Source: a virus. Taken from it: a stretch of 42,647 nt of DNA. The stretch covers positions 1 through 42,647 of the IMG/VR virus record IMGVR_UViG_3300025732_000085; one strand, written 5' to 3'. The notes under the pieces are model-generated. The model did no database searches, was not told the origin of the DNA, and saw only the letters and a list, made by a program, of their open reading frames with translations. The position numbers and the translations under genes are program-made. Each line of letters begins with the position of its first letter. The first letter of the stretch is position 1. This document shows positions 1 through 42,647 of the stretch, one piece after another.

Positions 1-1
1 C

Positions 2-331
2 GGCCGGTTCTTCGGCTTTGACCTGCAGACCATGGAACAAGGCCTTCAGTTCACCCGCTACGAAGCACCAGGCGAACATTACGAATGGCACATTGACCGA
101 GGCATGAACACCGGCACCCGCAAACTGTCGCTGTCCCTACAACTCACCAACCCCGACGAGTATGAAGGTGGCGACCTCGAACTGTGGTTCGGAGGCGAAC
201 CCGTCAAAGCGAGCCGTGACCGAGGCATGATGACCCTGTTCCCGTCATACGCACTTCACAGGGTCACCCCAGTAACCTCCGGTGTTCGGTACAGTTTGGT
301 ATGTTGGGTGTCGGGACCACCGTTCAAATAA
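2..331 (+). CDS. 2OG-Fe(II) oxygenase, PKHD/prolyl-hydroxylase type (5' truncated)
   Basis: C-terminal 109 residues of a 2-oxoglutarate- and iron-dependent dioxygenase, cut by the window edge. Visible are the iron-binding H-x-D in EWHIDRG, the distal His in ALHRV and the Arg in GVRYSL expected to hold 2-oxoglutarate. The family hydroxylates protein side chains or small substrates; the substrate here is unknown. It differs at only 5 of 109 residues from the complete gene at 40659-41297, so on a circular genome the two are one gene seen in two variants. The next gene starts 16 bases downstream with a strong ribosome site. Confidence 0.8.
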   Translation, partial: GRFFGFDLQTMEQGLQFTRYEAPGEHYEWHIDRGMNTGTRKLSLSLQLTNPDEYEGGDLELWFGGEPVKASRDRGMMTLFPSYALHRVTPVTSGVRYSLVCWVSGPPFK

Positions 332-347
332 CCTGACAGGAGGGGAC

Positions 348-596
348 ATGCCTGCCAAGCAGAACCTGTTCGACCACATCGTTGCGGTCAACACCACCAA
401 AAAAGGTCCGTCTTGCACCATGCAGACGATCATGGCCGCCCTCAGCCCGGAAGACCTGGACGGCCTGAACAGAGCCTTGGCCAACCCGGACATCCGAGGC
501 ACAGCGATCCGCAAGGCGTTGGGCGACCGAGGCTTGAAGGTCAGCGACACGACGCTCGGCCGCCATCGACGGGGGGAGTGCCTCTGTGGCTCTTGA
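348..596 (+). CDS. small HTH-like DNA-binding protein, paired with phosphoesterase
   Basis: 82 residues, starting at ATG 348 behind a strong AGGAGGGG site seven bases or fewer upstream. An in-frame upstream start at 282 would read through the previous gene and is rejected. The C-terminal half (ANPDIRGTAIRKAL, then VSDTTLGRHRRGEC) has the look of a helix-turn-helix followed by a basic recognition segment and a Cys-x-Cys tail. Small proteins of this kind often precede metallophosphoesterases in actinophages; that is recall, not tested. The gene overlaps the phosphoesterase start by 11 bases, so the pair is translationally coupled. The second copy at 41316-41564 differs at 5 of 82 residues. Confidence 0.75.
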   Translation: MPAKQNLFDHIVAVNTTKKGPSCTMQTIMAALSPEDLDGLNRALANPDIRGTAIRKALGDRGLKVSDTTLGRHRRGECLCGS

Positions 597-1656
597 CGAC
601 GACATTCAGGAATACAACGACGACAGCGACAAACTGAGGGCGCTCCTGCTCCAAGCCCGCCGGGCCCGCCAGTCGGCAGATCAGATGAACGCCGGCCTGA
701 TCGAGCGGATCACCGAGCTGGAGAAGGCGCTCGAGATCGTGGACGCCACCACCACCCTCAGCCTTGACCCGCCGAAATGGCTGGTCGCAGCCCCATCCAG
801 CCGCAAGAAGCACGCCACCCTGACCTTGATCCTGTCCGACACCCACTTCGATGAGGTTGTCCTACCGGAAGAAGTCGGCGGTCTGAACGCCTACAACCGG
901 GCCATAGCCGAAATCCGGTTGCGCTTATGGGCCGAGAACGCCATCAAGATCGCCAGGCATTACCTGTCCGGCGTCACCTACGACGGGGTCGTCGTCATGC
1001 TCGGAGGCGACATCTTCTCCGGCGACATCCACGACGAACTAGCCCAAACCAACGAGGACACCATCCTCGGCTCCCTGCTCCATTGGGCTGAACAGATCGG
1101 CGCCGCCCTATCCCTGCTCGCAGACGAATTCGGCAAAGTCCACGTCGCCTGCGTCATCGGCAACCACGGTCGCATGAGCCGGAAACCTCGAGCCAAACTC
1201 CGAGCCAAAACCAACTTTGACTGGCTGCTCGGCAAGATGATTGAACGGCACTTCAACAAAGACAAACGGTTCACCTTCCAAATCTCCGAGAACGCCGACG
1301 TGATCGTCCCCATCTACGGTTGGGGCCACCTCCTGACCCACGGCGACCAAGTCCACGGCGGAGGCGGAATCGGCGGCATTTGGCCCCCCATCATGCGGAT
1401 GCGAGCAAGAAAAGCCCAGCGTGCGATGGACATCGGCCACCCTTTCCACACCCTGTGGATGGGGCATTGGCACCAGCTGATCCAAACCCCAGGGATGATC
1501 GTCAACGGCTCCACCAAGGGTACCGACGAATACGCCTGGATCTCCAACTTTGGACACGAGCCACCGCAACAGGCGCTTGCTATCGTGACCCCCGAGCACA
1601 ACATCACGCTCCAAGCGCCGGTGTTCTGCCACGACCGCAAGAGGGAGAAATGGTGA
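586..1656 (+). CDS. calcineurin-like metallophosphoesterase
   Basis: 356 residues with the full metallophosphoesterase signature: SDTH (D85, H87), GGD (D142), GNH (N193, H194), a His near THGD (H252) and GHWH (H294, H296). These residues would form a two-metal phosphodiesterase or phosphatase site. Residues 1-75 form a separate helical, charged N-terminal extension. GTG 586 is chosen because it gives the same N-terminus in both copies and overlaps the HTH gene. The substrate is unknown: RNA, DNA or nucleotide phosphates are all possible. The conserved pairing with a small DNA-binding protein suggests a nucleic-acid or regulatory role. The copy at 41554-42624 differs at about 22 of 356 residues, none in the metal motifs. 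Confidence 0.9.
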   Translation: MALDDDIQEYNDDSDKLRALLLQARRARQSADQMNAGLIERITELEKALEIVDATTTLSLDPPKWLVAAPSSRKKHATLTLILSDTHFDEVVLPEEVGGLNAYNRAIAEIRLRLWAENAIKIARHYLSGVTYDGVVVMLGGDIFSGDIHDELAQTNEDTILGSLLHWAEQIGAALSLLADEFGKVHVACVIGNHGRMSRKPRAKLRAKTNFDWLLGKMIERHFNKDKRFTFQISENADVIVPIYGWGHLLTHGDQVHGGGGIGGIWPPIMRMRARKAQRAMDIGHPFHTLWMGHWHQLIQTPGMIVNGSTKGTDEYAWISNFGHEPPQQALAIVTPEHNITLQAPVFCHDRKREKW

Positions 1657-1952
1657 GTATCGACCGGCATGCCGTCTCGGCACAAGAGTGCGTCCCGCCC
1701 GTGGTACAGAACTTTTGGCCGGACGTTATTCCGGTCCACGCCATCTCCATTGTGGACGTTATTGGCCTCGAAGGAAAGCGAGAAATCATCGTGCTAACCG
1801 ACTCAGATCAGCCGCCGTGGGTCACCTCCGGCCTTCTCACCCTCGTCAAATCGGACGTCGAAACCGACTGGTCATCGCACTACCCGTATGAGGACGACGA
1901 CGACTACGAGGACGACGAGGACGAGGACGACGATGAGTATGACGACGAGTAA
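1650..1952 (+). CDS. unknown protein with polyacidic C-terminal tail
   Basis: 100 residues, ATG 1650, preceded by GAGGGAG and overlapping the phosphoesterase stop by 7 bases. Residues 1-75 form a small folded-looking domain with no family I recognise. The last ~20 residues are almost only Asp, Glu and Tyr, encoded by a GAC/GAG tract at 1890-1950. Acidic tails of this type can mimic nucleic acid or bind basic proteins, but nothing here proves that. The next gene starts inside the acidic tract. A second copy begins at 42618 and runs off the right edge. Confidence 0.65.
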   Translation: MVSIDRHAVSAQECVPPVVQNFWPDVIPVHAISIVDVIGLEGKREIIVLTDSDQPPWVTSGLLTLVKSDVETDWSSHYPYEDDDDYEDDEDEDDDEYDDE

Positions 1953-6231: not shown

Positions 6232-9200
6232 GTGGCCGACCAGCAGGATCTGCTCGGGAAATTCGGGATCAGGCCACCCCAGCAGACCGCACCAAGAACC
6301 ATTCAGCCGACGCGTCGCACCGCCACGCCGCCAGTTGCTCGTCTCGCACCCGTTGCCGCACCCGCTGCAGGCGCAAGCAAGTTTGCCAACGTCAAGTTGA
6401 CATCGCTCGGCCAAACAAAAAAGAAACAAGAAGAAGATCGAGGTTTCTGGTCCAACCTTATTTCGATCCCAACGTCAGCAGTCAAAGCTGTCGGCTCGGG
6501 AATCATGTCTCTCCCAACCGTCGCTGGCAAAGCCGCTCAAGAAGTTTATGGTTTAGGGGAACTCACCTTTGACACCGTCCTTGACGCCATTGACGACGAC
6601 ATTTTCACTAGCCGACTAGAAACCGACTACGCCAAAGGCAAAGAACTTGGCCTCAAAGGCGACGAATTGTACGCCTACGCGATGCACCGTCAACACCCGT
6701 TCATTGGTGGCATGTTCGGCAGCATGGCAAAAACAGGTGGCCGTCTAGCCGAACTAGGTTCTTTGGGTTTCTACAACTACGGTCAAGAAGGCATTGATTA
6801 CGCCAAAGCTTTCCGTGAAGGTCAGTTCGGCGCAACGCTCGTTGAAGATGTTGGCAACATCATTCTTGCTGGTCGCATGACCGGGGCAGGGAACCTTGTC
6901 ACCAAAGCCGGTGCAGCACTAGGCGAAACAGCACCTCGACTTGGAAAAGCTGTCAGCACAACCGGACGAATCATTGAAGAACCAGTTGGTGAAGCAGTTC
7001 GAACAACAGGAAAACTTGTTTCAAAAGCTGCTCCGACGGCAGCCAAACTAACCGAGGGGATGCGGTTCGCCCCCGAGCAAGACACCATCGCTCGACTTGG
7101 TAGCCGTGGCGGAGTCATCGGAGAAGCCGAACGGCCGATCCGTGTTCTATTCCAACAAATTGGCGACTCATACCGGATGAACCAGCAACGCAAACTAGGT
7201 GTGCTGGACGAAGAATACGCTCGCCTTGCAGCCGAACGGGACGCCGCTATCGCACAAGGTGACCGGCCGTTGGCTATGCAACGCGAAGCCGAAATCAAAT
7301 TGATTGAGGATCGGCAGATGAAACGCCTTGAAGGTGGCGGCGTCATCCGGCGTGGTCGCCAAATCGGACGCAGGTTCAAACTATTGGGCGAACGTGCCAG
7401 CCAACAAGTGATCCAACAATTCAACCGGGTTCGTGACTATGGCATCGCCCCGGAACGCCCCGAGGTGTATCGCGCCAAAGCACAGAACCTTCGTGCGCAA
7501 GCAGAACAGATCGCCAAAGAAACACCTACATACCCCGAATACATAGATGTCATGGTTGGCCAACAACCACGGCAAACATCTCGAGCACAACAATTGCTTG
7601 ACGCCGCCGACGCCCTTGATGAGATGGCCAACCTCAAGGAACAATTCCCCGAAGCTATGTCGGGACCCGTGCCTGCAGCTGTGCAAGAAGCAGCCATCCA
7701 CCTTGCCACCAAAGCACAAGCACTTCTCGCTTTGGCAGACAAAGGCATGACCATTGACGACCTTGTCCGTGCTGCGACAGATCCGACAGTCAACCCAACT
7801 CTCGCACAATCGGGGATGCAGCCAACGGCCGAAGGTGTTGCCCTAGCTCTTGAGGTGCTTCGTGCGCTTCGAGGACAAGAGACAGCACTCAACCGGGCAC
7901 AAGTAATGCAAGTGACCGCCATTCTGAATTTGCTCAAAGAATGGTCGCGCACCGCCCAAGAAGCAATGATGCGTGGGGAAGGCGTCCCTGATGGGCCGGT
8001 GCCTTTCACATGGTTTGAAACGTACCCGACACCCGCATATGTTGCAGCAGAACTAGCCAAAGGTGGAACCGAAGCTGCGGCCGTTGAAGCATTCCTTGAC
8101 CGGGCAGTTGCCGACTTTGTTGGGGCGGCCGTTCAGGCCGGTGCATTGCCTCCTGAGGTTCTTCAAGAATGGCGCGTCAATGTTGAGAATCCGTCCCGCA
8201 ACTATCGTCGTTTAGCCGCCCTGGACCCCGACGACGCTGGCTACAAACTTGCGTTTGAACTTGGGCGGGTGGCATACAAACAGTTGCTGCGGACTGCACC
8301 GAACTTCATGATGAACCCGCGCATCTATCCGGCGACGATGCGCCCAACGGTCATCACCCAACGGCAGGCAGTGCGCCGAGTTACGGGATATGACGTTGAA
8401 ACAATTGCCCTCAAACTTGCCGAACTAGAAGACGAGTTTGACACGCTGATTGACGCCAACATTCTGAAAGGTATCGGCAACGACATCGTTGATGCCATGA
8501 ACCCGCAAAAGCGGATCACTCGGCAAACATGGGAACGTGTCAACGGTCGTATCCGAACAATTATTGAGCAAGCCCAAAAACGTCGGCTTGAGTTGGAGTC
8601 ACGCGTTTCAACATTGACTGCTGAGCAGAACGCCCAGTTGACAAAACTGATCGAGTTGGAACAGGCATTGTCGGCTGCTGACAACATGTTGAAACGGCAA
8701 GCCGCTGAACCGGTCGCCAAGTCACCTCGGTTGATTGCCGCAGAGTCACGCCGCACCAACCTTGACGCCGAACGTGCCCGCCTTACAGAAGAATTAGACA
8801 ATGTCAATCGGGACATCAACGACGCCGCTCAAGCGGAAGTTATTGACGCACCTCGTTTGCGTTCCATCATTGACGGCAACACCACCCGTGTTGAGGAACT
8901 ACAAGCGCGCCTTGACGAGATTGACACCGAACTCAGCCCGTTGGAACAGGAACTTGACCGACTGAGTAGCGAAGTCAACGGCATGGATCGGTTGACCGAG
9001 AACGAGCGCGAGAACCTTGCACTTGATTACGCCGACCTCATCAACGAGGGCTACACGCCTGGTGAAGCACCTATGTCCGCTCGAGCGCAACGGGAACCAA
9101 CACCAGCAGAACTAAAGAATCATAAGCAGCGAACCCTTGACGACCTGAAGCAAATCGAGGACGAAGCATCCGATGTCCTATTCAATGATCTTGCTGGCGG

Positions 9201-12200
9201 CGGTCTACCTGCTGGACGAATTACGCCACCGTGGCAGCTTGGTCAAGAAGCTGACTCAATTTATGTTGAAACAAAAAAGGTAACCATTGACGGTGCCGAA
9301 GATTGGCGTTTGCCTGTTCAACAAATTCTTGGCGACGGACAGATGTACCAAGATTTTCTTGCCGAGGCGACCGGGTGGGCTGGCCCGCAAGCCGGATCTG
9401 CTGATTACCCATCGGGTATGACCGTTGACCAATTTCCTGACGCTAAAGCTTCGTTAGGACGAGACGAAGCAGGAATTTTCAACCGACGCACAGAAGAACA
9501 AGCTCTTGTTGAATACGCTCGTAAATACAAAGAATTGTGGGAAACCCGCAAACGGCGACTAGAACTTCAAAAGAAACCAAACAAATGGTTTGCTGACGAC
9601 TGGAAGCAGACACAAGCAGAATCCGCACCCGAAATCAGCATGATGAGTTACGGGCTGTCCCGCTTATCGCCTGAAGAAATCGCCGCCTACTACAAGTATC
9701 TTGACCCCGAAACGCTCGCTAACGCCCGCCGTGAAATCAAGTACATGCAAGCCGAGGTTGACAAACTGCGCGCCGAGCGACGCAAACTAAATGACCAAGC
9801 ACAGAAACTTGACGCCGAATCTCGAGACGCGCGTGGCCGGTTGAAGCCGCCGATCCCACGGGAACTGGGTGTCAAAGCGACCCGTCTCCAAGTGGAGTTG
9901 CGCCGTCTTTCACGGCAACAGACGCAAACACCTCGAGTGCTCAAAGCAGCTCGCAAAGCCGAACCGACCGAAGCGTTGCGCGCCGAACAGGCTGCGCTTC
10001 GTGGCACCGCCGGGGAAGTACGACGCCCTGCCCCCGGTGCGGAAGGCCCAGCGTTGGGTCGTGTTCGACGCCCCCGACGTCTCGTCGCAGAAAAAGAACA
10101 GGCACGACTCAACCGTGAGGACAGCCGCCGAACAACGGTGCTACGCCGCCTTCGCAACGAAGCCGAACAACAGAGTGCGGTCGAGGTTGCCGCTCTTGAA
10201 GCGCAAGCCACCCCGCTTCAGCGCCCCGAGTTCACTCCCGAAGGTATGCCGTTCGGACCGGAGTTGTTCCAGCAAGGAGAAGCCCCGATCTATTTGCCCG
10301 CTGGTCCTGCTGGCGGAATGTTGCCGGAACGTGACTTGCAAGCTGTTATGCGAGGCGAAGGAGCTGGTGCGCAAACACGGCTACAAGCGACCCGTGAACG
10401 GTATTCGGGTTCGTTCGTATTGAGTTTGGCGTCAATGGCACAACGAATCAAAGAAGTCACCGATCAGCAGTATCGCAACCTCGCCGTTGAACAAATTATT
10501 TCTGATCCCGAGATGGCTTCTACGGTAGAAAAATTGTTGCCTGAGCAAGAACTGGCACAAATGCAGATGGACGCCGAACAGTCCGTGGCTGCACAAAACA
10601 TTGATCGAACAAGTCCCGAGTTCGAACGTGAAGTTGGTGCGCAACTAGGTGTCCTTATTGCGGACGCCCTTGACAAGCGTGGTTATGAAGTTGTCGCCCC
10701 CCAGAAATTTGATCCAGAAACCGGTGGGCATGCTCCGCTAGGCACATTGAGCCAATCTGTACGGCCAGATCAAATTGCGTTCAATTCGCCTGTTATGCGC
10801 AAGGGAGTTGCGGCACGTTTGTTCACGCAGTTTGAACCAGCTGGAACACGCAATGTGCCCGTCATGATTCAACGCGCTCTTGACACTATTGGGTCCGTTA
10901 CCAACAAATGGAAATCGGTGGTCTTGCCGTTGTCACTTCGCTGGCAAATTGGTGACGCCATCGGCATTGTGATGTTTGCATGGTCACGAGGTGACATCAA
11001 TCCACTACAACTGACTAAACGCATCCGAGAAGTCATTGGTCGCATGACCGACCCCAACGATCCACGTCTGGGAACCATTTTGTTTGGCGACGTGTTGAGC
11101 GCCGGAGGTTTCACCGATCCCGTCCTTGCTGCAGGTTTCGGAGCTGCGCTCGCCGGTCGAGGCCTTCGACTTGAAGACCTGTCGTTCACAATGGAAGACG
11201 GCCGTCGTGTTCTGGCCGACCCGAACTATCGTCCGTCAAACAAAGCCGCCAATGTATTCAACTCGTATCGCACCAGGGCGTTCCGTTTCAACGAAGCAAT
11301 CAACAGCATCGGTCGTAGCGCCGTATTCATTGACAAATTAGACGGACTGCTGAAAGAAAAAGGCCGTTCGCTTGACGAAATCAACGGCGTCAATTCGCTT
11401 GGTGATGCAGAACTAAAGCAAGCCATCTCTGAGGCTGTTGACGCAACAAACGAAACACTTGGTGCGTTCTCCGATTTGTCGCCGTGGGAAAAGCAGGTGT
11501 TCCGCCAAATCTTCCCGTTCTGGTCGTGGATCAAGTTCATCAACAAAGCAGCATTCGAACTAGCGGCCGACAGCCCAGAGCGCGTTTTGTTATTTGCAAA
11601 CCTCGGCTCCATGATGACTGAAGGCGACGACACCGGACTAGCCGACTGGCTTCGAGGCAAAACCCCGGTCATGGGCTACTTCGTTGACTTGAACTTCTTG
11701 AACCCATACAGCGACGCCGCATTGTTCACCCGCAACCCATTCACCGATGTTCTTGAGACAGGAAGTTCGGTCAGCCCGGCAATCACATTCCCGTTGACAG
11801 TTGCCAACGAACTGTATTACGGGCAAACGGGGCGCAACCTCCCACTCGCCCCGCAACTATCACGCCCCGGATACCTTGAAGGACGACCCGAGGCAACAAC
11901 CAGAGGATTCGGAGATGTTCTCGGCGGCATCGGATACAAGGGTCTGACCACTTTCGGTGGCCCGTTCCGCAACATCCTTGACGTTCTACCAACCGGCACT
12001 ATCCCCGGCACCGACATTGCGACCGGACCGGCACCACGATTCGGGCAAGGTTCCCTACGCACCACCGGCGCATACGCTGAACCACGCCTCGGCCCCGTCG
12101 CCGGTCGGATCAGCCCCCTGCTTCGGACATTCGGTGTTCCGGCACCGCTGATTGATGTCAAACAGGCCAGAGAACAAGCCAGAAAACAAACACAACGAGA

Positions 12201-12249
12201 CAGGGCTGCTCGCCTCCGCCGTATCAAAGAAAGAAAAGCTGCACAATGA
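6232..12249 (+). CDS. giant 2005-aa putative DNA-ejection (internal virion) protein
   Basis: 2005 residues, GTG 6232 with AGGAGA nearby; 14% of the genome. The N-terminal 120 residues are basic and Pro/Thr-rich, then a weakly hydrophobic Gly-rich part (about 60-110). Long coiled-coil stretches lie at about 725-925 and 1160-1300, with strong heptad character and many Arg/Glu. The C-terminal third is better ordered and contains NKWKSVVLPLSLRWQIGDA (about 1557) and the aromatic segment RQIFPFWSWIKFINK (about 1756). It ends in a very basic tail. It is longer than gp16-type ejection proteins (about 1300 aa). No transglycosylase or protease motif was found. A role in crossing the cell envelope with DNA is inferred from size and neighbours. 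Confidence 0.6.
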   Translation: MADQQDLLGKFGIRPPQQTAPRTIQPTRRTATPPVARLAPVAAPAAGASKFANVKLTSLGQTKKKQEEDRGFWSNLISIPTSAVKAVGSGIMSLPTVAGKAAQEVYGLGELTFDTVLDAIDDDIFTSRLETDYAKGKELGLKGDELYAYAMHRQHPFIGGMFGSMAKTGGRLAELGSLGFYNYGQEGIDYAKAFREGQFGATLVEDVGNIILAGRMTGAGNLVTKAGAALGETAPRLGKAVSTTGRIIEEPVGEAVRTTGKLVSKAAPTAAKLTEGMRFAPEQDTIARLGSRGGVIGEAERPIRVLFQQIGDSYRMNQQRKLGVLDEEYARLAAERDAAIAQGDRPLAMQREAEIKLIEDRQMKRLEGGGVIRRGRQIGRRFKLLGERASQQVIQQFNRVRDYGIAPERPEVYRAKAQNLRAQAEQIAKETPTYPEYIDVMVGQQPRQTSRAQQLLDAADALDEMANLKEQFPEAMSGPVPAAVQEAAIHLATKAQALLALADKGMTIDDLVRAATDPTVNPTLAQSGMQPTAEGVALALEVLRALRGQETALNRAQVMQVTAILNLLKEWSRTAQEAMMRGEGVPDGPVPFTWFETYPTPAYVAAELAKGGTEAAAVEAFLDRAVADFVGAAVQAGALPPEVLQEWRVNVENPSRNYRRLAALDPDDAGYKLAFELGRVAYKQLLRTAPNFMMNPRIYPATMRPTVITQRQAVRRVTGYDVETIALKLAELEDEFDTLIDANILKGIGNDIVDAMNPQKRITRQTWERVNGRIRTIIEQAQKRRLELESRVSTLTAEQNAQLTKLIELEQALSAADNMLKRQAAEPVAKSPRLIAAESRRTNLDAERARLTEELDNVNRDINDAAQAEVIDAPRLRSIIDGNTTRVEELQARLDEIDTELSPLEQELDRLSSEVNGMDRLTENERENLALDYADLINEGYTPGEAPMSARAQREPTPAELKNHKQRTLDDLKQIEDEASDVLFNDLAGGGLPAGRITPPWQLGQEADSIYVETKKVTIDGAEDWRLPVQQILGDGQMYQDFLAEATGWAGPQAGSADYPSGMTVDQFPDAKASLGRDEAGIFNRRTEEQALVEYARKYKELWETRKRRLELQKKPNKWFADDWKQTQAESAPEISMMSYGLSRLSPEEIAAYYKYLDPETLANARREIKYMQAEVDKLRAERRKLNDQAQKLDAESRDARGRLKPPIPRELGVKATRLQVELRRLSRQQTQTPRVLKAARKAEPTEALRAEQAALRGTAGEVRRPAPGAEGPALGRVRRPRRLVAEKEQARLNREDSRRTTVLRRLRNEAEQQSAVEVAALEAQATPLQRPEFTPEGMPFGPELFQQGEAPIYLPAGPAGGMLPERDLQAVMRGEGAGAQTRLQATRERYSGSFVLSLASMAQRIKEVTDQQYRNLAVEQIISDPEMASTVEKLLPEQELAQMQMDAEQSVAAQNIDRTSPEFEREVGAQLGVLIADALDKRGYEVVAPQKFDPETGGHAPLGTLSQSVRPDQIAFNSPVMRKGVAARLFTQFEPAGTRNVPVMIQRALDTIGSVTNKWKSVVLPLSLRWQIGDAIGIVMFAWSRGDINPLQLTKRIREVIGRMTDPNDPRLGTILFGDVLSAGGFTDPVLAAGFGAALAGRGLRLEDLSFTMEDGRRVLADPNYRPSNKAANVFNSYRTRAFRFNEAINSIGRSAVFIDKLDGLLKEKGRSLDEINGVNSLGDAELKQAISEAVDATNETLGAFSDLSPWEKQVFRQIFPFWSWIKFINKAAFELAADSPERVLLFANLGSMMTEGDDTGLADWLRGKTPVMGYFVDLNFLNPYSDAALFTRNPFTDVLETGSSVSPAITFPLTVANELYYGQTGRNLPLAPQLSRPGYLEGRPEATTRGFGDVLGGIGYKGLTTFGGPFRNILDVLPTGTIPGTDIATGPAPRFGQGSLRTTGAYAEPRLGPVAGRISPLLRTFGVPAPLIDVKQAREQARKQTQRDRAARLRRIKERKAAQ

Positions 12250-14817: not shown

Positions 14818-15339
14818 ATGACACCTGCCAAAGAGATAGTGCCCGTCGGGGACAGCGTCGTTGCTCTCGACACCACCGCCAGCCTTCAGGCTGACCTGTT
14901 GCGCGCCGACGACCGTCGCCGTGAACTCGTCGCAGCCGGAGACTGGCAAACCCTGACCTACGGACTGGTCGAACTCCGCAAGATCAAGAACGACCTCGAC
15001 GCCCTAGTGCGCGAGGTGGAGGAAAACATTGCTTCGCTCCTGCCGGAGAAGAAGGTCGTCCTCGAGAACCTGGGAGTGATCGAGCGCCGTACCGCCAGCA
15101 GCCGCAAGTGGGACTCCGAGGGACTGTTGAAAGACCTCGTCCGCACCACGCTGGACCCGGAAGGCACCGGCGAAGTCCATGTTCAAAATGTCCTGAACCT
15201 GATCGAGTTGCTCAAGAAGGTTCTGCCGCTGACCGGCTCGCTCGGTTGGAGAGTTACACCCCTGCGCGAACATGGCGTAGCGGTGGACGACTACAGCGAA
15301 ACCACCTACGGTCGTTCGACCGTCCAAATCACCAACTGA
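14818..15339 (+). CDS. conserved actinophage protein preceding RecT
   Basis: 173 residues, probably translated from a leaderless transcript. Residues 20-75 are helical and charged (LADDRRRELVAAGDW-like, then LVELRKIKNDLDALVREVEE). Residues 80-110 carry a short beta region (VVLENLGVIERRT), and the C-terminus contains LGWRVTPLREHGV and TTYGRSTVQI. From memory, proteins with this layout precede RecT-like genes in actinophages, which suggests a recombination or nuclease partner. No nuclease motif was identified. Confidence 0.6.
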   Translation: MTPAKEIVPVGDSVVALDTTASLQADLLRADDRRRELVAAGDWQTLTYGLVELRKIKNDLDALVREVEENIASLLPEKKVVLENLGVIERRTASSRKWDSEGLLKDLVRTTLDPEGTGEVHVQNVLNLIELLKKVLPLTGSLGWRVTPLREHGVAVDDYSETTYGRSTVQITN

Positions 15340-15350
15340 AGGGGATAACC

Positions 15351-16271
15351 ATGACAGACACACAAGCCATCGAAGTGGCCCGGCCACTCTCACCCGCCGA
15401 AATCTCATGGAAGGTGGCGCAAAAGATCGCCAACACGCCTTTCGTGCCGACAGCCTTCCGAGGCAAACCGGAATCGGTGTACGCCGCTGTCCTGTACGGC
15501 GAGGAACTCGGCCTCGGGCCGATGCAGTCCCTGACCCAAATCCACGTCATCGAAGGTAAGCCGTCTCTCGCCCCCGAAGGCATGCGTGGACTGGTCCTGA
15601 AGGCTGGTCACCGGATCGACGTGAAGATTGCCAGCAACGACAAGGTCGTTTTGTACGGCAAGCGTGCCGACTCCGGTTCCGAAGCCACCGTTGAATGGAC
15701 GATGAAGGACGCACAACTCGCTGGGCTTGCTGGGCGTGGCGCATGGAAAACCTATCCTCGGGCGATGCTCATGGCTCGAGCCACTTCCGAACTGTGTCGC
15801 ATGCTGTTCGCTGACATCATTGCCGGACTGTCCTACACGCCGGAGGAAGCAGCCAGCATCGCCGGTGTCGAATGGTCCGAGACACCAGCGCCGACACCGA
15901 CACCAGCATTGGCAACCTTTGAGCCTGCCCCGGTGGCCGACATCGTGGACACCATTGACGAAGCCCTCGCCTACGAACCGGAGGTTCCGATGGTGAAGGA
16001 AGCACCGATGACGGTGGCCGAGGTGCAAGAAATCTTTGATGCCGAAATCGTTGACAACGAATTCCAGGTGCGGCCCGAAGACGCCGCTACCGGCAAGCAG
16101 ATCAACATGATCCGGGCTATCGGCAAAGGTGTCGGACTCGGCCATGACGACCTGAAAGGTGTGGCCTCCGGTCTGCTCGGACGAGAAATCAACGTGCTCG
16201 CCGGGATCACCAAGCGCGAAGCGTCGCAGATCATCGACCATCTGAAGGCCATGCCGGTGGTGGCATCATGA
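15351..16271 (+). CDS. RecT-like single-strand annealing protein
   Basis: 306 residues from ATG 15351, with AAGGGG upstream; the longer upstream frame is antisense to nothing real but overlaps the previous gene and is rejected. The N-terminal 170 residues match actinophage RecT-type proteins: GKPESVYAAVLYGEELGLGP, MQSLTQIHVIEGKPSL, then WKTYPRAMLMARATSELCR. RecT proteins anneal complementary single strands during recombination-dependent replication. A linker rich in Pro/Ala/Glu (about 180-245) leads to a C-terminal helical domain (KQINMIRAIGKGVGLG, then REASQIIDHL). No exonuclease partner was recognised nearby. Confidence 0.75.
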   Translation: MTDTQAIEVARPLSPAEISWKVAQKIANTPFVPTAFRGKPESVYAAVLYGEELGLGPMQSLTQIHVIEGKPSLAPEGMRGLVLKAGHRIDVKIASNDKVVLYGKRADSGSEATVEWTMKDAQLAGLAGRGAWKTYPRAMLMARATSELCRMLFADIIAGLSYTPEEAASIAGVEWSETPAPTPTPALATFEPAPVADIVDTIDEALAYEPEVPMVKEAPMTVAEVQEIFDAEIVDNEFQVRPEDAATGKQINMIRAIGKGVGLGHDDLKGVASGLLGREINVLAGITKREASQIIDHLKAMPVVAS

Positions 16272-18536: not shown

Positions 18537-18778
18537 CCCGCAACCGAATCAACATTGACGTCGACCCGCACCTGCTGAAATGGATTGACCTTACGGCAAC
18601 CATTGTCGGAGCGAACCGAACCGAAACCGCTAGGGCGCTACTCAAAATGATGTCCGAGAGCAACCCTCGCTACGACACGCTCAAGACACGGATCGCAGAG
18701 CGACGGGCAGAGATGAATCAGTCTCGCTCCCAGCACCAAAGCGCCCGCCATCGTCCTCGACAGCAATCGCCGCAATAA
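18533..18778 (+). CDS. ribbon-helix-helix DNA-binding protein
   Basis: 81 residues from GTG 18533. TRNRINIDVDPHLLKWIDL then GANRTETARALLKMM is the strand-helix-turn-helix plan of CopG/Arc-type repressors. The C-terminal 30 residues are basic and Gln/Ser-rich. That tail is encoded in a 98-base convergent overlap with the recombinase-like gene on the other strand, so each gene constrains the other. A likely local repressor; targets could include the palindromic sites near 19.75 or 23.4 kb. Confidence 0.6.
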   Translation: MTRNRINIDVDPHLLKWIDLTATIVGANRTETARALLKMMSESNPRYDTLKTRIAERRAEMNQSRSQHQSARHRPRQQSPQ

Positions 18779-19601
18779 CCTCCGCCTGGCTCACCTGACG
18801 CAACCGGGACGGCAAACACAAGACACGCCGAACCCAGCGTTCGTTCGTATGGCCAAGCCACTTCGAAATAATCAGCGGATCAACCCCACGCTGATACTGC
18901 CGGTACACCGACGCCCGACGAAGCTCCTGAGCAGTCAACGGACGACCAATCGCCGCCTCCACAAACCGTTTCACCCGCACCGACGCCCGATCAGCTGTCA
19001 AACCACCAGCCAACGGCGACGACGGAGCGAACACCGCCGCCAACCCCAACGACAACACCTCAAGACGTCCTGACACCGCGACATCACGCGGTCGTTCCGC
19101 ACGACCCCGCACCCGCACCAACGTCTGCCCGTCAACCGTCCGAACATCCATCCCCCGCACCCGCAACGCCTCAGACGGCTCGAGAGCACAGTATGCGACC
19201 ATCCCCACCAGCCACTCCCAACGAGGACCAGCCTTCCCCGCAGCATCCATAATCGCCCGAAGCTCATCCTCAGACGGCACATACGGCGTCACAACCTTCC
19301 GAAACGGCTTCGGCACCCACGCATCACGCCACCCGTGACCATGCACCACACCGGCCTTCATCAACGCATCAAACCACGACGTCAACCCCGACACTCGAGA
19401 TTGAACCGACGACGGCGTGTAATTCGACCGCAAAAAGTCAATAAACGCTTGACAATGCTTCCAATTCGCATCCAGCGCATGAACACCATTCTCTTTGCAC
19501 CAACGCTGCCAAAGAACAATGTCCTTCTTGTACCGATCCCGAGTCTCGAGCGACTTCTTCGACGCCAAAAACTGGGCGGTTACCGACCGAACCGTAGACA
19601 T
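18681..19601 (-). CDS. tyrosine-recombinase-like protein, apparently catalytically degenerate
   Basis: 306 residues, start at 19601 behind AAGGTGAG. Residues 1-95 form a core-binding (SAM-like) domain (KSLETRDRYKKDIVLWQRWC). Residues 110-275 follow the tyrosine recombinase catalytic fold: YCALEPSEALRVRGMDV stands where GLRxSEL is expected, QELRRASVYRQYQRG where HxLR is expected, then WLGH. The first catalytic Arg appears to be Glu, box-II His is Gln, and no Tyr follows LGH (ERWVRRVL instead). It probably binds DNA without strand cleavage, or is decaying. It lies just downstream of the CTCGAG-rich operon and may once have moved that module. Confidence 0.7.
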   Translation of the reverse strand: MSTVRSVTAQFLASKKSLETRDRYKKDIVLWQRWCKENGVHALDANWKHCQAFIDFLRSNYTPSSVQSRVSGLTSWFDALMKAGVVHGHGWRDAWVPKPFRKVVTPYVPSEDELRAIMDAAGKAGPRWEWLVGMVAYCALEPSEALRVRGMDVRTVDGQTLVRVRGRAERPRDVAVSGRLEVLSLGLAAVFAPSSPLAGGLTADRASVRVKRFVEAAIGRPLTAQELRRASVYRQYQRGVDPLIISKWLGHTNERWVRRVLCLPSRLRQVSQAEVIAAIAVEDDGGRFGAGSETDSSLPVALRSVS

Positions 19602-35307: not shown

Positions 35308-37221
35308 ATGACGATTCCCCCGGCCCTAGCCCAGCCTTCCGTATCCCAGGCTCCCATCGAGACGACCGACCCGAACGCCGTCTCTAAAACCATCCTTGAC
35401 GCCAAAGGCGATCTGATTGTCGCCACAGCCGCCGACACGCCCTCCCGGCTTCCTGTTGGCACCAACGGCTATGTTCTCCTAGCCGACTCGACACAGACCA
35501 CCGGCATCAAATGGGCACCCGATCCGACCTCGTCCTCGTTTGACGCCAAAGGCGACCTGCTGGTCGGTACAGCCGACAACGCCTACACCGCCCTCCCTGT
35601 CGGCTCCAACGGGCAGGTTCTTGTCGCAGACTCCACCCAGGCGTCCGGCATCAAATGGTCATCCGAAACCGACCCGAACTCCATCAACAAATCCATCATC
35701 GACGCCAAGGGAGACTTGGTTGCCGGGCAGGCTGACGACACCCCAGCGCGCCTACCCATCGGCACCAACGGCCAATACCTGATCGCAGACTCCGCTCAGA
35801 CCCTCGGCATGAAATGGGCTGATCCGAGCATCGCCCTTGGGACGCAAACCACCGGTGACTATGTCGCCGGAGTCAGCGGAGGTACAGGCGTTTCGGTGAC
35901 CGGCTCCGGCGGAGAAGGCTCCACCCCGAGCATCGCTATCGGTCAGTCCGTCGGCACCGGCGACACCGTCGCGTTCGGCGGCCTGAACGTCGACTCCGGC
36001 ACCCTCTACGTCGACGCCACCAACAATCGGGTCGGAATCAACGACACCACCCCGTCCTACAGCCTCGACGTCACCGGCGACGGACACTTCACCACCGACC
36101 TCACCGTCGACGGCACGGTCTACGCCCCACACATCCACGGCGACCTTGCTGGGCTCGTCTACTTCCACGTCAAAAACACGACGGCATCGCTCATCCCGAA
36201 CGGCACCCCCGTCTACATCACCGGCACCGTCGGCTCAACACAAGTCTGCGAAATCGCCCCCGCAGATGCCTCCAACCCAGCCAAAATGCCTGCTATCGGC
36301 ATCACCGACGGCGACATTGGTGTCAATGCGAACGGTCATGCCGTCATCGTGGGCGACCTTGACTCGCAGAACACCGCTATCTACAGCATCAACCAGCCCC
36401 TGTACGTTGCCTCCGGCGGCGGCATCACCGGAACACGCCCAACCAATGCCTCCGACGTCATCCAAATCGTTGGCCATGTCAGCCGAGTCAACACCAACAC
36501 CGGAGGCATCGTTGTTGCCTGCGGCCCATCGGCCACAACACCAAACACGATTAGCATCACCGGCAACATCACGACCACCACAGGCCAGTTCAACGGCTCC
36601 GGCGCCGGTCTGACCAGCATCCCCGCAGGACAGCTCACCGGCACCGTCCCGAGCGCACAGATCGGCAACGACAGCGTCGCCCTCGGCACCAAAACCACCG
36701 GCGACTACGTCCAAACCCTGACCGCCGGAACAGGCGTCACCGTCACCGGAGGCACCGGGGAAGGCTCCACGCCGACGGTCGCCATCGGCCAAGCGGTAGC
36801 GATCACCGACAGCCCCCAGTTCGTCGGCCTGACCACGACCGGCACCGCCACCCTGAACGCCGCCAGCGTCACCAACAGCCTCTCAGCCAACAGCATCTCG
36901 TCCACCACCTCGCTGACCAGCGCCACCCTGATCGTGGACGGCATCGAGATCGACACAACCGGCGCCACCACCAACCAGGTGCTCGCCTACAACGGCACCA
37001 AGTTCGTGCCCACAACCGGTGGCGGAGGTGGGGGAGCAAGCGTCACCGTCTCAGCCACCCCACCGTCCAGCCCAACAACCGGCGACCTGTGGTACGACTC
37101 AGACACCGCAGCGACCTACATCTATTACGACAGCGTATGGTCGGAAATTGGCGGCTCGACAGGTTCTAACACCCCATCGGACAACGTGTCAGTTATTCTT
37201 GGCGCAAGCGTTTTCAGGTAG
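35308..37221 (+). CDS. tail fibre with DAKGDL repeats
   Basis: 637 residues, AGGAGGCAGG upstream. Three tandem repeats of about 48-53 residues begin DAKGDL at residues 31, 79 and 132 and end in GIKW or GMKW. Two more copies of a GTxTTGDYV...GSTPxxAIGQ module follow (about 178-215 and 455-490), with a segment resembling adhesin heads (NNRVGINDTTPSYSLDVTGD). The C-terminus ends in a short beta domain (TGDLWYDSDTAATYIYYDSV). A fibrous, receptor-facing protein. The DAKGDL repeat recurs in the gene at 38344. Confidence 0.8.
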   Translation: MTIPPALAQPSVSQAPIETTDPNAVSKTILDAKGDLIVATAADTPSRLPVGTNGYVLLADSTQTTGIKWAPDPTSSSFDAKGDLLVGTADNAYTALPVGSNGQVLVADSTQASGIKWSSETDPNSINKSIIDAKGDLVAGQADDTPARLPIGTNGQYLIADSAQTLGMKWADPSIALGTQTTGDYVAGVSGGTGVSVTGSGGEGSTPSIAIGQSVGTGDTVAFGGLNVDSGTLYVDATNNRVGINDTTPSYSLDVTGDGHFTTDLTVDGTVYAPHIHGDLAGLVYFHVKNTTASLIPNGTPVYITGTVGSTQVCEIAPADASNPAKMPAIGITDGDIGVNANGHAVIVGDLDSQNTAIYSINQPLYVASGGGITGTRPTNASDVIQIVGHVSRVNTNTGGIVVACGPSATTPNTISITGNITTTTGQFNGSGAGLTSIPAGQLTGTVPSAQIGNDSVALGTKTTGDYVQTLTAGTGVTVTGGTGEGSTPTVAIGQAVAITDSPQFVGLTTTGTATLNAASVTNSLSANSISSTTSLTSATLIVDGIEIDTTGATTNQVLAYNGTKFVPTTGGGGGGASVTVSATPPSSPTTGDLWYDSDTAATYIYYDSVWSEIGGSTGSNTPSDNVSVILGASVFR

Positions 37222-40057: not shown

Positions 40058-40675
40058 ATGGGATTCAATTCCGACACAGGAATAACTAGCGGACCGCTCG
40101 TCGTCCGACAATTGTTTGACCCAATCACCCACGAAGCAATCAAACAGTTCCTAGACGACCGCGTCCCCATGATGAGCGTCGGCGTCGACGAAACCGACTT
40201 TGTCCGCACCTACGCCCACAACGTCCCCTATTTCGTGGGCATCCACAGACAGTTAGCGGAATACGCCAGCGAAGTGTTCGGTGAGAAAGTGAAACCGTCC
40301 TACTCGTTCCTGTCCATGTATCAGGACAACGGCATCTGTCCTTTGCACATTGACCGACCGCAATGCCGATACACGATTGACTACCTGATCCGCCAAGACC
40401 AGCCGGACCCGTGGCCTATTCTCATCGGTGACCACATGACCGACGAACAGCGTCAAACATTGGACGAATCCGGCGACGGACACCCCGAAGACGACGACGC
40501 CATTCAGGCTCGTATTGACGCCGAAAACTGGCATGAAGTGCTTCTTAGCCCCAACGACGCTGCCTGTTACTCGGGCACCCACTCATGGCATTACCGGCCC
40601 AAACGGCTTGCCGGAACCGCCGATCTAGTGTTCTTCCACTTCGTACCGGAGGCGTTCGATGGTCCGCTCAACTGA
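40058..40675 (+). CDS. 2OG-Fe(II) dioxygenase-like protein
   Basis: 205 residues, GAAGGGGAAAT upstream of ATG 40058. SMYQDNGICPLHIDRPQC gives H97-x-D99 as metal ligands; distal His178 and Arg180 in SWHYRP. Differs from the next gene in sequence and in an inserted acidic loop (about 125-160, DEQRQTLDESGDGHPEDDD), so they are different families of the same fold. Likely to hydroxylate a protein or a small molecule; substrate unknown. Overlaps the next gene by 17 bases. Confidence 0.7.
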   Translation: MGFNSDTGITSGPLVVRQLFDPITHEAIKQFLDDRVPMMSVGVDETDFVRTYAHNVPYFVGIHRQLAEYASEVFGEKVKPSYSFLSMYQDNGICPLHIDRPQCRYTIDYLIRQDQPDPWPILIGDHMTDEQRQTLDESGDGHPEDDDAIQARIDAENWHEVLLSPNDAACYSGTHSWHYRPKRLAGTADLVFFHFVPEAFDGPLN

Positions 40676-41297
40676 TCCCGTCAACCTGACCGTAGACCTA
40701 CCCAAACTGCGTCCAGCAAGCGCAGCCGGAGGCGGATGGCCCCTACGCCAAGACCCCGTCGAAAACTTTGCTTGGTCCAAAAACGCCTTCACATCCGCCG
40801 AACTGGATGCCATCATCAACATCGGACAAAGCATCGAGATCGAGCGGGCCTCCACCTACGGAGGAAGCGACCCCAAAATCCGAGACTCCTACGTCAATTT
40901 CCTGTTCCCGAACGAGGTCACCGGCTGGGTATTCGAACGGATCGCTGCAGTCATCAACGAAATGAACGGCCGGTTCTTCGGTTTCGATCTACAGACGATG
41001 GAGCAAGGACTCCAGTTCACCCGCTATCAGGCGCCAGGCGAACACTACGAATGGCACATTGACCGAGGGATGAACACCGGCACCCGCAAACTGTCCTTGT
41101 CCGTCCAACTGACCGACCCCGACGAATACGAAGGTGGCGACCTCGAGTTGTGGTTCGGTGGGGAGCCAGTCAAAGCATCTCGAGAACGAGGCATGATTAC
41201 CTTGTTCCCGTCCTACGCGCTTCATAGGGTCACCCCAGTTACCTCGGGAGTTCGTTACAGTTTGGTATGTTGGGTGTCGGGACCACCTTTCAAATAG
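40659..41297 (+). CDS. 2OG-Fe(II) oxygenase, PKHD/prolyl-hydroxylase type (complete)
   Basis: 212 residues. Leader with Pro/Ala-rich start, helical part (SAELDAIINIGQSIEIE), then the double-stranded beta-helix: WHIDRG (H133, D135), GGDLELWFGG, FPSYALHR (H189) and GVRYSLVCW (R199). All iron and 2-oxoglutarate residues are present. The related prolyl hydroxylases act on proteins; here a virion or host target can only be guessed. The C-terminal half is repeated at the left window edge. Confidence 0.85.
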   Translation: MVRSTDPVNLTVDLPKLRPASAAGGGWPLRQDPVENFAWSKNAFTSAELDAIINIGQSIEIERASTYGGSDPKIRDSYVNFLFPNEVTGWVFERIAAVINEMNGRFFGFDLQTMEQGLQFTRYQAPGEHYEWHIDRGMNTGTRKLSLSVQLTDPDEYEGGDLELWFGGEPVKASRERGMITLFPSYALHRVTPVTSGVRYSLVCWVSGPPFK

Positions 41298-41315
41298 CCA
41301 ACAACAGGAGGGGAA

Positions 41316-41564
41316 ATGCCTGCCAAGCAGAACCTGTTCGACCAAATCGTCGCCGTCAACACCACCAAGAAGGGGCCGTCCTGCACGATGCAGATGGTCA
41401 TGGCCGCCCTCAGCCCGGACGACCTGGACGGTCTGAACCGGGCGTTAGCCAACCCGGACATCCGAGGCACAGCGATCCGCAAGGCGCTAGCCGACCGAGG
41501 CTTGAAAGTGAGCGACACAACGCTTGGCCGTCACCGGCGAGGGGAGTGCCTCTGTGGCTCTTGA
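41316..41564 (+). CDS. small HTH-like DNA-binding protein (second copy)
   Basis: 82 residues from ATG 41316 behind AGGAGGGGAA. Differs from the copy at 348-596 by His to Gln at 10, Thr-Ile to Met-Val at 27-28, Glu to Asp at 35 and Gly to Ala at 59. The HTH-like part and Cys tail are the same. Overlaps the phosphoesterase start by 11 bases as in the left copy. Confidence 0.75.
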   Translation: MPAKQNLFDQIVAVNTTKKGPSCTMQMVMAALSPDDLDGLNRALANPDIRGTAIRKALADRGLKVSDTTLGRHRRGECLCGS

Positions 41565-42624
41565 CGACGACATCCAGGGATACAACGACGACAGCGACAA
41601 ACTGAGGGCGCTCCTGCTCCAAGCCCGCCGGGCACGCCAGTCGGCCGATCAGATGAACGCCAACCTGATCGAACGGGTTACCGAACTCGAGAAGGCGCTT
41701 GACATCGTGGACGCCACCACGACCCTCAGCCTTGACCCGCCGAAATGGCTGGTGGCTAAACCGTCTAGCCGCAAGAAGCATGCCACCCTGACTCTGATCC
41801 TGTCCGACACCCACTTTGACGAGGTGGTACTGCCCGAGGAAGTCGGCGGCCTCAACGCCTACAACCGGCACATAGCCGAAATCCGGCTTCAAACCTGGGC
41901 GCAGAACGCCGTCAAAATCGCCCGCAACTATCTCTCAGGGGTCACCTACGATGGGGTCGTCGTCATGCTCGGAGGCGACATCTTCTCCGGCGACATCCAC
42001 GAAGAACTCGCCCAAACCAACGAGGACACCATCCTTGGCTCCCTTCTCCATTGGGCCGAGCAGATCGGCTCAGCCCTAACCATGTTGGCCGACGAATTTG
42101 GCAAAGTCCATGTTGCCTGCGTCATCGGCAACCACGGCCGGATGAGCCGGAAACCTCGAGCCAAACTCCGAGCCAAAACCAACTTTGACTGGCTGCTCGG
42201 CAAGATGATTGAACGGCATTTCACCGGCGACCGGCGGTTCACCTTCCAAATCTCCGAGAACGCCGACGTGATCGTCCCCATCTACGGCTGGGGTCACCTC
42301 CTCACCCACGGCGACCAAGCCCACGGTGGAGGCGGAATCGGCGGTATTTGGCCCCCGATCATGCGGATGCGAGCCAAGAAAGCCCAGCGTGCGATGGACA
42401 TCGGGCATCCTTTCCACACCCTGTGGATGGGGCATTGGCACCAGTTGATCCAAACCCCCGGCCTGATCGTCAACGGCTCCACCAAAGGCACCGACGAATA
42501 CGCCTGGGTCTCCAACTTTGGGCATGAGCCACCGCAGCAGGCGCTTGCTATCGTGACCCCCGAGCACAACATCACGCTCCAAGCGCCGGTGTTCTGCCAC
42601 GACCGCAAGAGGGAGAAATGGTGA
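41554..42624 (+). CDS. calcineurin-like metallophosphoesterase (second copy)
   Basis: 356 residues from GTG 41554; an earlier in-frame TTG at 41524 would lie within the HTH gene. Metal motifs SDTH, GGD, GNH, THGD and GHWH are all intact. About 22 substitutions against 586-1656, clustered at 107-125 and 224-227 (NKDK to TGDR) and absent from the active site, show purifying selection. A variant of the same locus rather than a specialised paralogue is the simpler reading. Confidence 0.9.
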   Translation: MALDDDIQGYNDDSDKLRALLLQARRARQSADQMNANLIERVTELEKALDIVDATTTLSLDPPKWLVAKPSSRKKHATLTLILSDTHFDEVVLPEEVGGLNAYNRHIAEIRLQTWAQNAVKIARNYLSGVTYDGVVVMLGGDIFSGDIHEELAQTNEDTILGSLLHWAEQIGSALTMLADEFGKVHVACVIGNHGRMSRKPRAKLRAKTNFDWLLGKMIERHFTGDRRFTFQISENADVIVPIYGWGHLLTHGDQAHGGGGIGGIWPPIMRMRAKKAQRAMDIGHPFHTLWMGHWHQLIQTPGLIVNGSTKGTDEYAWVSNFGHEPPQQALAIVTPEHNITLQAPVFCHDRKREKW

Positions 42625-42647
42625 GTATTGACCGGCATGCCGTCTCG
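42618..42647 (+). CDS. acidic-tail protein, start only (3' truncated)
   Basis: First ten codons (MVSIDRHAVS) of the gene found complete at 1650-1952, cut by the right window edge. One synonymous change (ATC to ATT) distinguishes it. Overlaps the phosphoesterase stop in the same way. Confidence 0.75.
   Translation, partial: MVSIDRHAVS

Follow-up and report, generated by a model that had tools for sequence, protein, structure and literature searches.

An imperfect 1.68-kb end overlap in a viral contig is probably the wrap-around of a ~40.97-kb phage genome assembled from two strains

Phages that package by the headful mechanism (T4 type) form terminal redundancy heterozygotes, in which the two ends of one linear molecule carry different alleles. 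Assembly of circular templates yields end repeats of k-mer length (CheckV, PMC8116208), and contigs with such repeats are the ‘DTR contigs’ of CheckV and the ‘self_circular’ contigs of COBRA; assemblers also leave maxK-length end sequences at contig breaks, and where the break is due to within-population variation, the graph divides between strain variants and the circle stays unclosed (COBRA, PMC10914622). The window, that is, the whole 42,647-nucleotide stretch of viral DNA analysed here, resembles each of these: like the DTR contigs, it would be a circular-map contig that overlaps itself; like the variation breaks, it would be a circle left unclosed by strain variants; and like the T4-type heterozygotes, it has different alleles of one region at its two ends. 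It also differs from each, as exact DTR versions of 117–127 bp are found in relatives of the window phage whereas its own overlap is 1.68 kb long and only 89% identical, so that an exact-repeat test would miss it; neither window end has the usual maxK identical stretch of the COBRA-type breaks; and the T4-type heterozygote is a physical molecule, whereas the window is an assembly. The overlap is a known kind of assembly result, an ordinary by-product of mixed populations, and the record very probably represents a complete phage genome of ~40.97 kb.

Self-blastn returned a single long self-match, between positions 1–1679 and 40967–42647, with 89.36% identity over 1683 columns (1504/1683 identical), in line with the earlier note's observation that the left 1,679 bases match the right end; in a global alignment, 179 of the 1683 columns differ, 6 of them being gap columns. 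In both comparisons the alignment runs from base 1 to base 42647, exactly the two contig ends, and so forms a dovetail. A segment duplicated inside a genome normally has its flanks visible on at least one side, and a dovetail of exactly this kind results when a contig runs on past its own beginning. The overlap implies a unit length of 40,966–40,968 bp, of which ~1.68 kb is 4.1%. The two ends are homologous and not exact: the first 15 and the last 18 aligned bases are identical, after which the versions differ, and the window accordingly lacks a DTR in the CheckV sense, for which the ends must repeat exactly over 20 bp or more. A 126–127-base identical run was looked for at the window's own ends and was absent, and the two ends have no word in common that exceeds 91 bases. 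The overlap comprises the following features:

1–1679, + strand: left member of the overlap, allele A, with the C-terminal half of an oxygenase, an HTH-like gene, a phosphoesterase and the start of the next gene (89.4% identical to 40967–42647)
2–331, + strand: 2OG-Fe(II) oxygenase, allele A, 5′ half removed by the contig start (5′-open ORF, aligning with 40968 onward)
348–596, + strand: small HTH-like protein, allele A (read as HTH in the earlier note)
586–1656, + strand: metallophosphoesterase/exonuclease, allele A (phrog_284 exonuclease, E 8.8e-46)
1570–1660, + strand: identical run of 91 bases, the longest word common to both members (from the alignment)
1650–1952, + strand: acidic next gene of 100 aa, complete at the left end only (follows a single phosphoesterase in 24 relative loci)
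40659–41297, + strand: 2OG-Fe(II) oxygenase, complete copy at the right end (PF13640, E 2.8e-16; phrog_61, E 7.7e-33)
40967–42647, + strand: right member of the overlap, allele B, with the same gene content (self-alignment)
41316–41564, + strand: small HTH-like protein, allele B (ORF; frame comparison with allele A)
41524–42624, + strand: metallophosphoesterase/exonuclease, allele B (phrog_284, E 2.6e-46)
42618–42647, + strand: acidic next gene, first 10 codons, truncated by the contig end (ORF)

Beyond the HTH/phosphoesterase pair to which the earlier note had drawn attention, the repeat therefore also includes the C-terminal half of the oxygenase and the first bases of the acidic gene. The phosphoesterase half of that pair was upheld by its phrog_284 match, while the HTH identity found no family match, allele B giving none in either Pfam or PHROG; a phmmer search of the phosphoesterase against solved structures likewise gave no match. 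When the overlap is folded, a circle of ~40.97 kb results in which all junction genes are whole, both the oxygenase gene, complete on the right only, and the acidic gene, complete on the left only. Next to the oxygenase gene lies a gene for a 205-aa protein (40058–40675) matching PHROG families annotated as ferrochelatase.

Comparison of the two alleles agreed with the statement that frames are conserved with many synonymous changes. Alleles A and B differ by 5 nonsynonymous and 20 synonymous codons in the HTH-like gene (dN 0.028, dS 0.50) and by 22 and 63, respectively, in the phosphoesterase (dN 0.041, dS 0.36); the oxygenase pieces gave a dN of ~0.02 and a dS of 0.4–0.95, and the three compared genes all keep their frames, with zero internal stops. 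The differences are unevenly spread, as had also been remarked together with an identical stretch of ~90 bases: the longest identical run measures 91 bases at 1570–1660 (P 0.006 under uniform placement of differences), and five identical runs are at least 50 bases long where 0.6 would be expected, a number reached in none of 20,000 shuffles. A merely conserved motif was considered for the 91-base run and rejected, as every relative compared differs within it, by 6 (L004) to 37 of the 91 bases; an exact 36-mer from the run matched no other contig in a scan of viral contigs that may omit very near records. Among the relatives, L003 and L004 (93% at the amino-acid level) are the closest, and across the phosphoesterase region the left copy, the right copy and L004 differ pairwise by 10–15%. 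The alleles of L004 are mainly right-copy-like at ~786–984, mainly left-copy-like at 1068–1260 and a mixture of both elsewhere (permutation P 0.002 over 98 informative sites, indicative only because neighbouring sites are non-independent). On these sequence comparisons, the mosaic sharing of alleles among left copy, right copy and L004 suggests recombination between strains.

We put at about 95% the probability that the window is the wrap-around overlap of a circular-map phage genome of ~40.97 kb with the alleles of two strains at its ends. The genome would be that of a tailed phage, circular or else circularly permuted with terminal redundancy, and the contig would make one full turn of it and continue for 1.68 kb past its own starting point; the population would contain at least two strains, the contig starting within the oxygenase/HTH/phosphoesterase region of one and ending within that of another. 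An assembler using words longer than 91 bases would not recognise the overlap and would leave the circle unclosed, because the longest identical word common to the two versions is 91 bases; we infer such a word length for this record, and likewise that the switch of strain within the contig arose in assembly and not in a real recombinant molecule. The scarcity of long common words accounts for the unclosed overlap, not for where the contig stops. Because there is no 126–127-base identical run at the window's ends, these ends are not simple forks between the two alleles, and the positions at which they stop may reflect a third strain, a gap in coverage or the use of a different assembler.

End overlaps were surveyed in 37 near-complete related records. 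Eight had exact end repeats (117–127 bp), one had an overlap of 127 bp that was exact but displaced by 32 bases, eight had imperfect dovetails (G007, G011, G015, G016, G022, G066, G068 and G069) and 20 had none. The imperfect overlaps include 441 bp at 97.3% in G011, overlaps with indels at 92–94.5% identity in G066 and G068, and 778 bp at 87.6% in G016, a less clean case because it sits within a collagen-like repeat gene (GPQGPQG repeats). Six of the eight imperfect-dovetail records carry 126–127 identical bases at one contig end. A break at a k-mer graph fork between two strains would leave k or k−1 identical bases there, and the lengths seen suggest that these records were assembled with k=127; the lack of this fork mark at the window's ends is the one test that the two-strain circular reading does not fit, and it fits every other test run. 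The diverged overlaps (87.6–94.5%) of G016 (L107, L108), G066 (L229, L230) and G068 (L233, L234) probably mark these records as unrecognised complete genomes. With imperfect end overlaps as common as exact ones in this phage group (8 and 8 of 37 records), a mismatch-tolerant dovetail test could recover complete genomes and avoid false counts of duplicated genes.

Terminal redundancy in headful phages such as P22 spans a range that includes ~4.1% of the unit, and the overlap would fit a real headful-packaged molecule, cut from a concatemer of recombining strains, whose ends carry different alleles. The P22/SU10-type portal match, the large terminase, the encoded RecT-like annealing protein and the apparently mosaic alleles all agree with such a heterozygous redundancy. 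This account is nevertheless very improbable: it needs a record derived from a single molecule, but the related records bear short-read k-mer marks, and such ends vary among virions, so that assembly would not normally retain one pair. Searches of the literature collection used here turned up nothing on heterozygous terminal redundancy.

The copy number and gene order of the relatives bear on a further alternative, raised in the earlier note, namely a real tandem duplication in which one genome holds two working oxygenase-end/HTH/phosphoesterase segments and the contig is cut exactly at their junction. When viral contigs were scanned for the phosphoesterase, 80 loci emerged, each with one phosphoesterase place; the HTH-like gene adjoins it in 43 of the 80, and a relative of the acidic gene follows in 24, at 40 bases or less in 22 of these. 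No second phosphoesterase copy was present in any of the 60 distinct related records searched whole. In L003 and L004, the content of window 31.6–37.0 kb and 41.5–42.6 kb leads through one copy into that of 1.65–3.6 kb and beyond. Comparison with related circular genomes, a check that the earlier note had proposed, gave the same picture: G006, a closed contig of 40,434 bp whose ends repeat each other exactly over 127 bp and whose cut lies near window 23–24 kb, carries in one continuous, single-copy row the ferrochelatase-like, oxygenase, HTH and phosphoesterase genes, g2754 and g3251. A duplication would suit the intact frames of both copies and the low dN relative to dS, but it found no support in these relatives; it would also have to include only half of the oxygenase gene and no more than the first 10 codons of the acidic gene, and it needs a contig that ends at the junction to within a few bases (odds of ~1 in 1,400, or 31/42,647, if the cut were random), where no long common word occurs to cause a break. 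We consider it exceedingly improbable. The ~40.97-kb circular genome from co-existing strains, by comparison, is supported by the dovetail, the single copy, the gene order across the junction and the recurrence of such overlaps in relatives.

So far as is known, replication keeps physical terminal repeats identical. Diverged fixed direct repeats of the T7 type, which would place a repeat at both ends as found, are exceedingly unlikely and were rejected, as the relatives are cut at differing places on the window map, with the cassette internal and in one copy; cut points so dispersed indicate that the ends are not fixed physical ends.

The window encodes a P22/SU10-type portal, a large terminase and a major head protein, and no tRNA genes were found in it. 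The overlap region gave no blastn match to cultured phages, and the terminase matched annotated phage records only below 60% identity (~34% among the matches listed); by these comparisons, the phage is without a close relative among annotated phage records. An integrase family match (18681–19601, minus strand) and the RecT-like annealing protein (15108–16271) suggest, from gene content, a temperate, recombination-prone phage. A 2005-aa protein is encoded at 6232–12249, with a weak, below-threshold TelA match at 712–891. Finally, a 637-aa gene (35308–37221) with matches to PHROGs tail-fibre families contains a direct repeat, 35396–35529 and 35540–35674, at 77% identity.
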